64,000 nucleotides of DNA from Spiroplasma taiwanense CT-1 (GTDB taxonomy: Bacteria; Bacillota_I; Bacilli_A; Mycoplasmatales; Mycoplasmataceae), in the NCBI RefSeq assembly GCF_000439435.1, contig NC_021846.1, forward strand, positions 558,001 through 622,000, given 5' to 3'. The notes under the pieces are model-generated. The model ran no database searches. It had not been told where the DNA came from and saw only the letters and a list, made by a program, of their open reading frames with translations. The translations under genes were made by a program, and so were the position numbers. Shown piece after piece: positions 1,176 through 8,492 of the stretch. Each line of letters begins with the position of its first letter. Position 1 is the stretch's first letter.

Positions 1176-1619
1176 TTGAAAAATTTTAAATATTTTATTA
1201 TTTTATTCATATCATTATTGGATGGAGTTGTTTTCTATTTATTATCTAATTCCTCAAAAGAAGAAAATAGTCAAATTACAAATTTAGAAACTTATCAAGT
1301 TTATTTTAAAGTAAAGTATGATATTAAGTTAAAACAGAATCGATTGTTACCAATAAAATTAACAAATGAAAATAAAATTAATGATCTTGATAATTTTATT
1401 GAAGAAAAGAAAATTGATTATTTATATAATTTTTTTAGTATTGATAATAATAAAGAATTACTTAAAAAAAATGAAATTATAGTATATCCACTTGAAAATA
1501 CTGAAATAGTTAAAACAAGTAGATATATAGTGAATTTTGAGTTTTTTAAATCTAAAGATGTTAGTGAAAATATTTCTAAAAAAACTGTTCTTATTTTAAA
1601 TGATATAAAAAATGATTAA
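1176..1619 (+). CDS. Hypothetical single-span membrane protein
   Basis: 147 residues, TTG start chosen because a strong AGGAGGTG lies 7-8 bases upstream. Residues about 5-23 form one hydrophobic helix without a lipobox Cys, followed by a charged Lys/Asn/Glu-rich domain, so it is probably membrane-anchored with an extracellular domain. The motif ETYQVYFKVKYDIKLK resembles NTYQVSEVKEKYILFK in the damaged next gene, suggesting tandem paralogues. It opens the mobile-element island. Function not recognised. Confidence 0.6.
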   Translation: MKNFKYFIILFISLLDGVVFYLLSNSSKEENSQITNLETYQVYFKVKYDIKLKQNRLLPIKLTNENKINDLDNFIEEKKIDYLYNFFSIDNNKELLKKNEIIVYPLENTEIVKTSRYIVNFEFFKSKDVSENISKKTVLILNDIKND

Positions 1620-1672
1620 GATGATTGCTTAAAAAAAAATTAAAAAAATCTATGTAGGAAGTAATTTTATTA

Positions 1673-2470
1673 ATGAATTTTATTCAAAAGATATTCCAAA
1701 ATTGCTTTTTTAATTTTCTTTTTTTAACATTTATTTTAATTTGTATTTTTGTTTATTTTGTATGTTGAATACCATATATTTTAAAAATAAAAAAGAAGTA
1801 TAAATTTTTTATATTACTTATTTTTTTTGAAATATTTTTTAATTTTTTATAAATTTGATGTAAATATTTTTATAAATTCAAATACTTATCAAGTGAGTGA
1901 AGTAAAGGAAAAATATATTTTATTTAAAAAAATATAAAAGTCTATATTATTTACAAGTAGGGGAGCAAAAGTTCTCAGTAGGGGAGTATGTAAAGGCAAT
2001 AGGGGAATTTAAAAAGATCAGTGTTAATGCTAATTATTGAGAATTTAATTTTAATAACTATCTTTTAAATAACAATGTAAAATAAAAAATCCAAAATGCT
2101 AATTTATATCAAATTAATAGATATGGAGTAAAATATTGATTTTATAAATTGATAAATGAATCTAATTCTTTAACAAAATTATTTGTTTTTCAAAGAAGAG
2201 AAAATAACGAAATATATTTAGAGTTATTAGGTTTAGGTTTAAGTTATTTAATAAATTTTAGTGATCTAAATATTTATTTATTAAGTTATTTTTTAAACAA
2301 AAAAGTTTTTAAATTTTCAAGAAAACAAAAAAAATATCGAATAATATTAATAATATTTTTTTTATTTTATAGCTGAATGCTTAATTTCAAATTATTTATT
2401 TTAAAATCTGGTATTTTGCTATTAATTGAATGAATTGAAATAAATTTTAATTTTAGGGAGAATAACAATA
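1673..2470 (+). pseudogene. Broken membrane protein gene, paralogue of the preceding gene
   Basis: An ATG at 1673 with AGGAAG 11 bases upstream opens a protein with two hydrophobic helices (LTFILICIFVYFVCWIPYIL, then FFILLIFFEIFFNF). The frame is lost at a T6 run (1843-1848), regained with NTYQVSEVKEKYILFKK, lost again at an A7 run (1926-1932), continues as LQVGEQKFSVGEYVKAIGEF, meets TAA at 2083-2085, and continues in the same frame as IQNANLYQINRYGVKYWFYK and more membrane-like sequence to about 2470. So one longer gene with at least two frameshifts and one nonsense codon. The 3' limit is approximate. No family recognised; a small phage or plasmid membrane protein is plausible. Confidence 0.55.
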
Positions 2471-2473
2471 ACT

Positions 2474-3372
2474 ATGTTATCAGGTGCTGACACCTTTACC
2501 GGTGGAGCTGCTGGAACAGCACTTAAAATAGCTAAAAAAACAGGGGGAGCTGTTGGTTTAGCTGCTATGGCTCTTTCATCTATTTATTCTGCTAAAGCAA
2601 GGTCTGGAATGAGTGCTAAAACAGCAGGTTTTAGAAACTCATTAGCACAAAAAAACAAGCTGTGCAAAATTGAGTTAAGCAAAATTCACCTATAGACAAA
2701 GATCCTGTCAAAAGAGCTAAACAGGAAGAAATTCGTAATGCTAAGTTAGAAGCTAAAAAAACCAAAAAAAGCAAAAACTTTGAAGAATACAAGTCAAATA
2801 TCCAAGACAAAATTTCTTCTACAGATTCAGGAATGCAAAAACTCTTATACCAACAAGAACTTGCTAAAAAAGAAAGAAAACACAAAAAACAACAAGCAAG
2901 ATACGACTATCTTAAATTTAGTTCATCAGATTCTAAAAATGATAATGCTCGTAGGATTCATAATTGAAGAAAAACTAAATTAGAATATAAAGCAGCTAAA
3001 CATGGTGATTTATTCCCTTCAAAAGCTCAATCTAAATTACAAAAATTTAATTCAAAAGAAGAAAACTGAATGAAGAAAAAAGGAATTGATCTAAATTTAG
3101 ATAAAAAAGGTCAAAAAGATGATTTCAAAACTCTTTCTTCAATGAATAGAAACAGTGAAACTAAAAAGGATATTAATTCTATTTTAGAAAAATACACTGC
3201 AAATGATAAAGATAAAAAAGTTAGAAAACAAAATCAAAAAAATATAAATAGAAACTTAAATAAAGAACAATTAGAAATTTTAAGAAAACACAAAAATCAG
3301 AAAAAAGAAAGTCACATTAAAGATGAATTTAAAAATCAAAACTATCGTTTTGATGAAAAACAAGGAAAATAA
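2474..3372 (+). pseudogene. Lys-rich mobile-element protein with one frameshift
   Basis: Starts with ATG after AGGGAG. N-terminal residues include a Gly/Ala-rich low-complexity hydrophobic stretch (GGAAGTALKIAKKTGGAVGL), then a very basic, Gln/Lys/Asn-rich helical region to a real TAA at 3370. The frame breaks at an A7 run (2649-2655); with one extra A the protein continues as QAVQNWVKQNSPIDKDPVKR and stays open for about 240 more residues, TGA being Trp. Expected full length about 300 residues. Charge and shape suggest a nucleic-acid or membrane-associated protein of a plasmid or phage, but I do not recognise the family. Confidence 0.6.
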
Positions 3373-3458: not shown

Positions 3459-4630
3459 ATGGTGAGACTTAGAACAAAAAAAATATACTAACAATTTAAC
3501 AATTCCAAATGATTGATTAATTCCAAATTATAATCATAAAAATTGGATTGATTCATTTCAAAAATCAACGCGTAATAGAAAACTTTTAGAGACAGGTGAA
3601 GGTATTTCAGCTGATTTTTTATCAGAGTTGAGATTTTATTTTCTTTTAATAAGAGAAAACGCTGCAATTGATGATTGTAGAAAAACACGAGATCTAAGAG
3701 CTAAAAAAGGTTATCAATATGAAATTGATGAAATAGAAAAAGGTGTTGAAATATTTAATCGACTAATGCATGGTGCTCCTATTCAAATTCCAAGTGATTC
3801 ACCTATTTGAGATGGTTTTTTGAGAATACATTGTTGCTCATGGAACGTTGAATGATCCATTGAGTGTAGGAATTAGGTGACCAACACATGAGTCAAACAC
3901 ACACCAACCTCATACTATTAATTTATCAATTGAATCAATTCAACAACACAAAGATTATAATTATATAACTGGACTTGCTTATTTGTGAGCAGACTTTGTT
4001 TCACAAAAAGAAAAGTGAAATGAAGAGATGAAAGAAGAAGGTGAATACTATAATTTAGGATATGGTGTAATAGAACCTTATAGATCAACAGCTTCTGAAG
4101 TTGTATTTAATTTTATAAACATAGCTTTTTGATATCACCACCCATTTTTCAATTATCCCCCACTTTATAATACTTATCCTTCAACAACAAGACCAGATGA
4201 TGCAACAATCGAAAGAGTAAAACAAAATTGACCTAATATAAGATTGAAAGCAGAAGAATTATTTAAAAAAGAAGTTGAATATTTACAAGGTCCATATTAT
4301 ATTGAAACCCATAAACCTTTAACAGATGAGAATTGAGAAAAACATTTATTGTATGCAAAAGAAGTTGAATTTATTAAACAACAAGCTGAAGCAGCAGAAA
4401 AAGAAAAGTGAGAAAAAATGAAAAGACAACAAGAGGATAGAGAAATTTCTCAACCTCACAATGCTAAAAAAGAATTTGAAAGTTTACCGATTGATGAACA
4501 AAAAATTATTTTAACAGCTTCTCAGTATAATGAAATAAAAAGAGTATTTAAATCTCAAAAAGAAAAAATACTAAATGATGAAAAGTTGATAAATGGAATA
4601 TTTGGTTCAATTGACCGAGAATTAGAATAA
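3459..4630 (+). pseudogene. Large hypothetical mobile-element protein, two frameshifts
   Basis: ATG at 3459 preceded by AAAGAAAGG. The frame is lost in an A8 run (3476-3483; A7 would keep it open) and again in a T6 run (3816-3821; T5 would keep it open), then runs without interruption to TAA at 4628. The restored product is about 390 residues, Trp- and Tyr-rich in the middle (IAFWYHHPFFNYPPLYNTYP), with a charged helical C-terminus (KQQAEAAEKEKWEKMKRQQE). No signal peptide or membrane helix is evident. Function not recognised. It sits 12 bases upstream of the restriction-modification gene, whose AGGCGGTG ribosome-binding site follows its stop, so the two were probably co-transcribed. Confidence 0.6.
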
Positions 4631-4642
4631 AGGCGGTGAAAT

Positions 4643-6790
4643 ATGAAAAAAACTGAGTTTGAAAATGTTAAATATTTCAATAAAATTATAGGTATAGAAA
4701 ATAAAACGGATGGAACTTTATTTATATATCCTACTCCAAAAGATAAAAAGTTAGGAGAAAAAATAAGTAGAAAACCAGACGGATATTATTACATGGATGG
4801 AGTAACTTTCATATTAGATGCTAAAGCAGAAGGTAATGAATTTTCTGGGCAACTAGAAGATTATTTGAAATTAGAACAAAATAAAAATAATGTTGGTTTT
4901 AAATATTCTGGCATTTTTTTTCAATGTTTTATTAATGGTGTTTTAATGGAAGAAGAAATAGAACCTAAAAATGCTGAATATTACATTTCGAAATATTTCA
5001 ATAATAAAATAACTAACGAAGATATAGTTAATAACTCTGCTAAGAAATTAGCAAATATGTTTAGAGATTCATCAATAGATAAACAAATGAATGTCCCATT
5101 TATAGGTTCCGTTATGCTTTGTCAAAAGTTTGGTAAAGATATAAGTGGAGATAGCACTAAAAACATTATCAGAAACATTAAATCAGCTATTGAAGAAATT
5201 ATTTTAAATGAACCAAAAACAAGACAAGAAAAAAAAGAATTTATAAAAACAATGTTAGATGATCCATCTTTGAATAAAACAAAAATAAGCGATATTATTC
5301 AAATAATTTCTGAAATTTCAACAGTTTACAATTTCATTAATGTATCTGATAAAAAAGGTCATGACACAATGAATAGTTTTTTGAAAATTTTTAGAAAATG
5401 AAATTCAGCTAACTCTAATGAAAAAGGTGAGGTTTTTACACCAGATCATATAGCTCAACTTATGTATAAAATTATTGATATTAAATTTAGCGATACTGTT
5501 TTGGATCCTACTTGTGGATCGGGGACTTTTTTAGTTAATGCTCTAACAAATATGCTAAACGAAACTGATGATGAAAATGAAAAAAAGAAAATAATGGAGG
5601 AAAGGGTTATAGGTATTGAAAATTTGAGTTTCAATGCAACTTTGGCAGGAATAAACATGTTACTCCATGGTGACGGTGCAAGTAATATTTTTGAAGAAAA
5701 TTGTTTTAAAAAGTTACCTCAACTAAAAGGTGAGTATAATAAAGTTTTAATGAATCCACCTTTTTCTCAAAAAGATAAAGAACTTAAATTTGTTTTAGAA
5801 GCATTGAATAATATGAAAGAAGGCGGAAAACTGGCAACAATATTACCTATAAATTGTATTTTAGGTAGAGGTGATAAGCAAAATGATAATTTAAAACTAA
5901 AAAAAGAAATTCTTTCAAAACACAAAATTATAAAATCTGTAAAATTACCTAATAAACTTTTTGAACCAAACGCTAGTACAGAAACTTGCATAATTGTTTT
6001 TGAATCTCACGCTAAATTAGAAAAACAAGTAATAGAATTATATGATTTTAGTAATGATGGGTATGAAATTAGGATGAGATCGGGTAGAGTTCCTATAAAT
6101 GAAGAGGAAGCTATGATTAGTTTCCAAAATCAAAAACCTATAATTAAAGAAGTCACTGAAAAAGATGATTGACTAATAGAACCTACACTTGATATAAATT
6201 CTTTTTCATCAGAAATTTTTCAAGCAGCAAAAATAGATTATGAAATGAGAGAGAAAAATTTAATAGAAATTTTGTATAAGAATGAAGGCAAAATAGATTT
6301 AAAAATCAGCACTAAATTCAAAGAAATGAGTTCTTATAATTGAAAAGAGTTTTTAATTTCTGATATTTTCGAAATTGAGGGAAAAGGTTTAGATAAACCA
6401 TTGTACAACTTTGATGATGAAAATAAAATAGCTTGCATAAATGCTAAAAAAAATAACAACGGTATTGGTGGTTATTGTTATAACCCTAAGAAGATTTTTA
6501 AACCTAAAAGATTTACTGTTGTTTCACAAGGCGATGGAGGAGCAGGGATGACTTATTTTCAAGATGATTATTTTTGTGCTACAACATCTGTTTTTGTATT
6601 AAAACCAAAATTTGAGGTTAATGTTAATGTGGGTATTTTCATAGCAAAAATTTGTAGTTTAAAGTGAAAAAGAATTTATTCACATGGTAAAACAATTACT
6701 AGGGAAGTTTTGTTGAAACAATCAATACCTTTACCTGTATCAGATGAAAATAAAATAGACTTTGAAACTATTGAAAATATAATGAAATAA
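4643..6790 (+). CDS. Single-chain restriction-modification enzyme (nuclease + N6-adenine methylase + recognition domain)
   Basis: 715 residues, intact once four TGA codons (5402, 6170, 6341, 6665) are read as Trp. N-terminal nuclease-like domain: PD at 45-46, then LDAK at 58-61 and Q70, the PD-(D/E)xK pattern. The middle is an HsdM-like gamma-class adenine methyltransferase: [10 protein letters not shown] near 266, SAM motif [11 protein letters not shown] near 288, catalytic NPPF at 371-374, and [10 protein letters not shown]. The C-terminus from about 565 ([16 protein letters not shown], then [14 protein letters not shown]) looks like one HsdS-type target recognition domain. The order nuclease-methylase-TRD in one chain is that of type IIG/IIC (BcgI-like) enzymes. 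It is the only undamaged long gene in the decayed island. Recognition site cannot be read from sequence. Confidence 0.85.
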
Positions 6791-6878
6791 AAATTAAAAA
6801 TTCTTAATTTTATAATTTGATTTAAGCGGAAAATATTTTTAGTAGTCGTTATAATTAAATAGACAAGCATAGCACATA

Positions 6879-7382
6879 TTGTCTCAATCAAAAAATATAA
6901 CAGAATTAAGAACTTTTAATTCTTGGTTAAAAGATGGGATAAATGTTAAAAAGGGATCTAAAGCTTTTTATGTATTGTCACATTTAAAACTCTGTAAAGA
7001 ACATCAATATGCCAAAAATTGCCCTTTGGAGTGTAAGGAACAATTTTTTAAATACAAAAAGGTTGTTTTGTTTGATGCAACACAAACTGATATGAAAGAA
7101 TTAGAAATAAACAAAATAATGAAAATAAAAGAAGAAAAAATTAAAAACAATAAAGAATTCACCCCATTGGTTAATTTCTTAAAAAGTGTAAAACCTTTTG
7201 ATTTGGAATTCGCAATGTCCACCGAAGGGGAAGGAGGGTTCACCAATGGGGAAAAAATAGTTATATCCTTGGATTTAAAGGATGAATATAGATTCAACAC
7301 TCTACTTCATGAATTTGGTCACCATTATTTAGATCACGCTGTTGATGGTAAGGGTTATGAAGGACATGTAAGAGGCATAAAG
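6879..7382 (+). pseudogene. ArdC-like antirestriction metallopeptidase, truncated
   Basis: About 168 residues remain. The N-terminus (ITELRTFNSWLKDGINVKKG, then KKVVLFDATQTD) matches the ArdC/DUF1738 ssDNA-binding domain pattern of Trp, VxKG and VFDxxQT. The second half carries a zinc-peptidase HExxH motif, HEFGHH at residues 144-149, with a preceding FNTLL helix. ArdC-type proteins protect incoming plasmid or conjugative DNA from restriction. The TTG start at 6879 has no visible ribosome-binding site, so the 5' end may also be lost. At about 7340-7385 the coding frame passes into a different, phage-like protein, removing the C-terminus. A candidate tail lies at 8508-8634. Neighbourhood with the restriction enzyme fits a conjugative or plasmid origin. 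Confidence 0.65.
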
Positions 7383-8492
7383 GAAAGATTTTATATGAAA
7401 TTAATTTATATTCTAATGATAAGCAAAATAAAGATTGAACTTTTAATATTGTTTATGATTCTGAAATTAAAGAATTTAGATATAATTTAATTCATTATTA
7501 TGAAAATAAAGTTGATAAAAGCTTTAGTGAAAAATTAGATACTCATTTAAATTCAAATAATTTTTTTAGGTATTTTTTTTACACCTTTAATTGAAAATCA
7601 AAGTCCATACTTATTTAATGCAAATAATTTAGTTTTTAATTTTATGTTTTCAGATTATTTAAGAAGTATTGCTAAAGAAGAAATGGCAAATTATTATGAA
7701 AGTTTTTTTGTTGATTTAACTAAATATTTTTTTGAATTAAACCCATTAACCTCTGTTGAATTTATAGTTCCTAATTATAAAGATAAAAATGGAGTTTGGA
7801 AAAAAATAAATTTAAATTATAATATGTTCATTAAAAATGGGTTTAATTTATACCCTAAAACTTTATTAATAAGTAGATTAGACTATAATGGTGGTAATGC
7901 TCCTTACCCACCAAATATCAATTTAAATTATAAAAATATTAGTAATATAAACTATGATACTAATTTAAATTATTATAGTTATTTAAATTCCAAAGATATA
8001 ATAGGTCAGTATATAAAAGTCGGAAGTACAAATTATTTGAATGAAATAAAAGCTTATACAATTGATAAAAATGTTCAAGGTTTTAATTCTGTTACTGCTA
8101 AAATTGAATCTACCGTACTTAATACAGGTAATGCTAATAATATAGAAAGTAAAAAATCTAATTTTTATGGTTTTAATTTTGTTATTTATAATAGTGATGA
8201 TTGAAATAATGTTGTAAATTCTCCAGACCAATTTTTTAATATTCCTTACCAAAAATGTGGAATAACAAATATTATGGGTTGTATTGCAAATGGGTTTATA
8301 TGAGCCGTAAATACATTAATTGATTTTACAGGTTTTAGTAAATTTGTTTCTCCTATTGTAACTGCAGGAGTTGCAACAACAGATTTATTGAAATCAATTC
8401 AAAACTTATTTGCATTTAATGTTACTTTTTCAATTATGATTTATTCTATTATGACTTTAGCAATTATAATTGCGATAGGAAAAATATTTTAG
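7383..8492 (+). pseudogene. Phage-like surface/adsorption protein fragment, one frameshift
   Basis: Reading frame with GKILYEINLYSNDKQNK runs to a T7 run at 7561-7567; with T6 it continues FLGIFFTPLIENQSPYLFN and stays open to TAG at 8490. The product is Asn/Tyr-rich, extracellular-looking, with two C-terminal hydrophobic helices (MGCIANGFIWAVNTLIDF and FSIMIYSIMTLAIIIAIG), a layout typical of large surface or adsorption proteins of Spiroplasma filamentous phages. That family placement is from general resemblance, not a match I can verify. No start codon is seen: its 5' end is joined directly to the ArdC-like gene, so this is an integrated or recombined 3' fragment. Confidence 0.5.

Follow-up and report, generated by a model that had tools for sequence, protein, structure and literature searches.

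What enzyme does the one long intact gene in a patch of broken mobile DNA encode, and why does it stand whole where its neighbours do not? The question is raised by a 64,000-nucleotide stretch of Spiroplasma taiwanense CT-1 (contig NC_021846.1, positions 558,001 to 622,000), which we call the window and by which all positions are numbered; its GC content is 22%, and the host genome measures 1.09 Mb. A sequence-only reading had seen, at 4643-6790 on the plus strand, an intact 715-residue single chain joining a PD...DAK nuclease, a gamma-class adenine methylase (DPTCGSG, NPPF) and one recognition domain, and this description of the chain is borne out below. The gene is, as judged from its sequence and models, a real, intact and horizontally acquired one for a single-chain Type IIG/IIB restriction-modification (R-M) enzyme with the HaeIV layout and predicted activity. 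To the fuller reading, in which two such chains would pair, read a symmetric bipartite site and cut on both sides of it, we give a probability of roughly two in three.

The reading frame and its domains

The frame at 4643-6790 runs from ATG to TAA over exactly 715 codons under genetic code 4, with four TGA codons read as tryptophan (W253, W510, W567 and W675); under code 11 it is fragmented. Since the longest stop-free run in 200 shuffles of an 8-kb region averaged 106 codons and never exceeded 212, its length lies far above chance. The candidate ribosome-binding site AAAGGCGGTGA and its spacer precede the ATG (4629-4642, plus strand); this strong, near-perfect Shine-Dalgarno-like site overlaps the stop of the upstream frame. 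The assignment as an R-M gene is further supported by PADLOC, which matches the protein to its Type IIG model (E 5.6e-40), and by full-length orthologs. Phase-variation repeats were sought, and nothing was found beyond A or T runs of 7-8, as expected at such composition.

The N-terminal domain (about residues 1-126; 4643-5020, plus strand) is predicted to be a PD-(D/E)xK nuclease. Its motif follows the pattern D-x12-(D/E)-x-K, then QxxxY, here D46, D59-A-K61 and Q70xxxY74, and across 19 divergent proteins D46, K61, Q70 and Y74 are invariant while position 59 is D or E; QxxxY is a feature of Type I HsdR nucleases. Modeled alone with AlphaFold, the domain reached a predicted local distance difference test score (pLDDT) of 86.8 and showed an alpha-beta-beta-alpha-beta core. 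A structure lacking a PD-(D/E)xK core had been named beforehand as the outcome that would count against a nuclease; the model has that core, and its best VIA match is the HsdR fragment 3h1t (Z 8.8, root mean square deviation [rmsd] 3.8, 116 aligned). The next VIA rows are mostly PD-(D/E)xK nucleases, among them BpuSI, Hjc, BsaXI, DrdV and the HsdR of EcoR124I. As Z values of 5-7 are weak by themselves, we identify the domain as a nuclease because the match list is uniform and the motif conserved. In Pfam, residues 1-126 reach no family cut-off, and a Tli4_N score under the cut-off was taken as chance.

As a separate observation, residues 45-84 (4775-4894) weakly match viral cap-snatching endonucleases (TIGR04202, E 0.041), and the folds of La Crosse and other L proteins also weakly match the nuclease domain; the resemblance presumably reflects the common PD-(D/E)xK fold.

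A helical connector (about residues 127-248; 5021-5386, plus strand), delimited from the helices of the model and an alignment with 2okc that spans residues 127-518, appears equivalent to the N-terminal helical domain of HsdM. It leads into a predicted N6-adenine methylase (about residues 249-500; 5387-6142, plus strand), supported by the folds of 2okc and BsaXI and by Pfam N6_Mtase, which matches residues 249-477 (E 2.9e-30). The order is gamma: motif I, DPTCGSG (residues 288-294), precedes motif IV, NPPF (residues 371-374), and the recognition domain comes last. This target-recognition domain (TRD; residues 557-715; 6311-6787, plus strand) is defined by exactly one copy of Methylase_S (E 6.9e-13, 49.6 bits, profile positions 3-152 of 168). 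Because the protein is the sole N6_Mtase match and the sole Methylase_S match in the genome, it should have no same-family companion to protect the other strand. Its Pfam matches include no helicase or ATPase domain, which is consistent with ATP-independent cleavage.

The AlphaFold models support the nuclease, methylase and recognition domains, in this order; that of the whole chain has a pLDDT of 84.1 and a predicted template modeling score (pTM) of 0.72. In VIA its best match is HsdM 2okc (Z 28.9, rmsd 4.5, 364 aligned); BsaXI (8w2p), of Type IIB, also matches well (Z 26.6, rmsd 3.2, 359 aligned).

Layout, class and proposed mode of action

An N-terminal PD-(D/E)xK nuclease fused to a gamma-order adenine methylase defines the protein as Type IIG, and one TRD in the same chain gives it the layout of HaeIV-like Type IIB enzymes. 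It departs from the two-subunit plan of BcgI, as the TRD lies within the chain and the genome holds no second Methylase_S match. The single TRD had been thought to suggest an unusual or dimer-based target; the second idea is a fair one, but the first does not hold, since enzymes of the MmeI/Eco57I type likewise have one TRD and HaeIV, a Type IIB/IIG enzyme of Haemophilus, has the identical layout. That precedent, a likeness of published layout and not of sequence, is an R~gammaM~[one TRD] chain written 2R~gammaM~[GAY], with the site 7/13 GAY N5 RTC 14/9 (PMC3874165, Table 4). The HaeIV site is symmetric and cleaved on both sides, suggesting that the enzyme acts as a homodimer (PMC3874165), and its polypeptides seem to be homodimers (PMC4027205).

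Other known systems share parts of this plan. BcgI, BsaXI and Sau42I combine the same HsdM-like methylase with a motorless N-terminal nuclease, but BcgI places two TRDs on an S subunit of their own, whereas the window protein carries a single TRD within its R-M chain. The protein of Staphylococcus aureus phage phi42 (Sau42I) is 37.7% identical over the methylase, and Sau42I, a BcgI-like Type IIB system, sits on a mobile element (PMC6532042). AloI, TstI and CjeI are likewise single R-M-S chains, whose bipartite sites are cleaved on either side (PMC4027205, PMC3874165), but they have about 1250 residues and two TRDs, against 715 residues and one TRD here.

Split layouts occur close by in the family. 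In one genome (G274) an R-M frame 56% identical to the window protein, which as found is without its first ~25 residues and so has an uncertain start, is directly followed by a separate 315-residue protein with two Methylase_S copies; contig 16 of G284 has the same plan with an S protein of 360 residues. Both correspond to the BcgI arrangement RM + S1~S2. Given these two-TRD relatives and the HaeIV precedent, two of the one-TRD chains probably act together. We suggest more tentatively, and with less than even confidence, that in Mollicutes a single R-M core (~56% identical) exists in two forms, a one-TRD single chain and a BcgI-type pair of genes whose S protein has two TRDs, and that these would form a living series along the proposed path from a homodimeric one-TRD enzyme with a symmetric site to a two-TRD enzyme with an asymmetric one.

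Our working model for the window enzyme is that two chains most likely pair and that each recognition domain would read its own half of a bipartite, symmetric DNA site. The methylases would each add an N6-methyl group to a single adenine in every half-site, the two modified adenines lying on opposite strands; where the site is unmethylated, the N-terminal nucleases would cleave both strands a short, fixed distance beyond it, probably in assemblies of at least two dimers. Such an enzyme would serve to exclude foreign DNA, for instance from phages or conjugative elements.

Several observations weigh against this model. Foldseek with the N-terminal domain alone gave nothing significant (best E 0.044), and a PDB profile search with its sequence gave zero matches, so that the identity of the domain is based on the second look with VIA and on motif conservation. 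One TRD would suit a monomer of the MmeI kind (Type IIG/IIL) just as well; such a monomer would read a continuous asymmetric site, methylate one strand and cut on one side ~14-21 bp away. MmeI and DrdV are single R-M-S chains with one TRD too, and in VIA the whole chain aligns with MmeI 5hr4 (Z 22.9, rmsd 5.1) and, over residues 1-715, with DrdV (Z 21.7). We nevertheless consider such a monomer unlikely: the PF20473 (MmeI_Mtase) match is weak, at 24 bits against a cut-off of 27, which leaves the protein outside the MmeI-like Type IIL family; HsdM and BsaXI fit better than MmeI, the methylase being nearer HsdM and the TRD a Type I-style Methylase_S domain; and near relatives carry the two-TRD, two-chain BcgI layout.

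An enzyme that only methylates, its nuclease inactive and the gene retained for modification or for protection of a mobile element, would suit decayed surroundings and a nuclease assigned by motifs and fold. We regard this as improbable, as D46, D59, K61, Q70 and Y74 are all present and all but D59 stay invariant down to relatives ~20% identical.

Distribution and movement of the family

A match at E <= 1e-20 was found in 51 of the 320 genomes of the order. About a dozen relatives are near full length, with 36-58% identity (40-58% in the search), and are mostly lone chromosomal genes. These full-length orthologs are scattered over mycoplasma families, and a protein search found the gene in 0 of the 19 other genomes of the genus. 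In the tree, the window protein pairs with a protein of family f3 (support 83/84), another f3 protein with one of family f7 (100/100), and the Mycoplasma anserisalpingitidis protein with an f3 protein (99/98); as the tree mixes families, the gene moves horizontally. Its G+C fraction at third codon positions (GC3) is 0.154, against 0.099 +/- 0.022 in 33 host frames. DNA-pattern searches in genome contigs and viral contigs confirmed no relatives, and plasmids gave no DNA match, and their protein matches, all below 60% identity, extend over no more than roughly two thirds of the query.

Two orthologs lie in mobile elements, a putative prophage of M. anserisalpingitidis MYCAV94 and a 26-kb contig of G284, both of which encode a related HerA/VirB4-like ATPase; the contig also has a ParA-like gene, assigned by eye from its sequence. 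With the scattered distribution and the absence from the 19 other genomes of the genus, this context indicates that the window gene is horizontally acquired. The MYCAV94 ortholog (QRI43994.1) is full length and 47% identical over the whole chain, but it is annotated as a "putative adenine-specific methyltransferase," that is, as a methylase only, and its TRD differs (35% identity in that region). Between groups, recognition domains are 26-39% identical to that of the window protein and methylases 46-56%; the G284 ortholog is the exception, with a recognition domain 57% identical, and may share the specificity of the window enzyme.

Two side observations concern these elements. In the MYCAV94 element (MW353169.1; L030, 6392-8278), an annotated restriction endonuclease adjoins a cytosine-specific methylase, which makes two R-M systems on one element, and since the putative prophage has a HerA/VirB4-like ATPase, it may be of conjugative and not of phage nature. 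Another genome (G020:C1; positions 25470, 359663 and 426704) contains three equal-scoring copies of a 787-codon relative at 30% identity, suggesting an R-M gene carried by a multi-copy mobile element.

Compared with its nearest ortholog, the window gene differs at 0.336, 0.220 and 0.465 of first, second and third codon positions. Such a spread is what purifying selection acting across the family's history leaves; within the lineage of the window copy, recent arrival could also account for its being intact.

Surroundings of the gene and significance of the family

The decayed surroundings reported for the gene were recovered on both of its sides. Upstream lies a disrupted, frameshifted open reading frame (3460-4630, plus strand; three-frame translation), broken near 3490 and 3850 and with an intact tail at 3770-4630 (286 residues), which has no Pfam or PHROG match and none in 36 relatives or plasmids. 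Downstream is a truncated ArdC-like antirestriction gene (6876-7385, plus strand) that keeps its HExxH motif and has lost both ends: it shares 55% identity with residues 22-192 of a 303-residue protein of G007, and Pfam ArdcN matches it under the family cut-off (E 0.0064). It is followed by a 3' fragment of a plectrovirus gene resembling ORF1 of Spiroplasma phage SVTS2 (7581-8489, plus strand), which shares 48% identity with residues 207-513 of a 513-residue protein in four-copy elements of G017.

At 7381-7590 plectrovirus-like sequence takes over directly from the ArdC fragment near 7386, which looks as if the phage remnant had inserted into the ArdC gene. In G007 itself, two ArdC-like copies (L066, 10866-11480; L067, 3160-4068) lie ~11.6 kb apart in neighboring repeated blocks; one is shortened, and transposase-like genes surround them. 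Further upstream in the window, the region 1176-3372 has no match to families, plasmids or relatives. Its 2474-3372 part holds two overlapping lysine-rich frames, the longer of which (2662-3372, 236 residues) is intact and has no recognizable relatives in the 36 genomes or plasmids. The R-M gene had been called the only long undamaged gene of the island; this stands for its neighbors, disrupted at the 5' end (upstream frame), truncated at both ends (ArdC) or reduced to a 3' fragment (plectrovirus gene), with the qualification that short intact frames such as 2662-3372 exist.

The search for attachment repeats flanking the island returned only low-complexity A/T matches. An empty site was sought in relatives: the neighboring MATE gene has ~70% identical (DNA) copies in two of them (G005 and G011), but next to other genes, so that no boundary emerged, and the flanking genes were not syntenic in the relatives examined. 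The sequence thus points to a real decayed mobile island that is a composite of unrelated remnants.

The proposal that the gene persists as a selfish addiction module, its loss killing the cell through residual nuclease on unprotected DNA, draws on an intact gene among broken neighbors and on the precedent of R-M systems that stabilize mobile DNA through post-segregational killing (PMC4176335), but we hold it very improbable, since such killing would require a nuclease that outlasts the methylase and here both share one chain and one half-life, so that they would dilute and fall together and killing on loss is possible rather than favored, since recent acquisition (GC3) or a defense benefit would account for an intact gene just as well, and since all 19 other genomes of the genus do without the gene.

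The advance is a modest one, as the enzyme type itself (Type IIG/IIB) was already known, and its best part is that a single family includes chains with one TRD and systems with two: the nearby split relatives open the evolution of Type IIB specificity to testing. A compact HaeIV-layout family is added to those of Mollicutes, spread across families and sometimes on mobile elements, and it is possibly annotated elsewhere as a methylase only, as in MYCAV94. By its sequence, the window gene encodes a defense enzyme of ordinary type, moving among mycoplasma-like bacteria on mobile DNA, that should mark host DNA and cut unmarked DNA. A new defined N6-methyladenine motif in the strain would require protected DNA for transformation, which would be useful to know for genetics in such bacteria.
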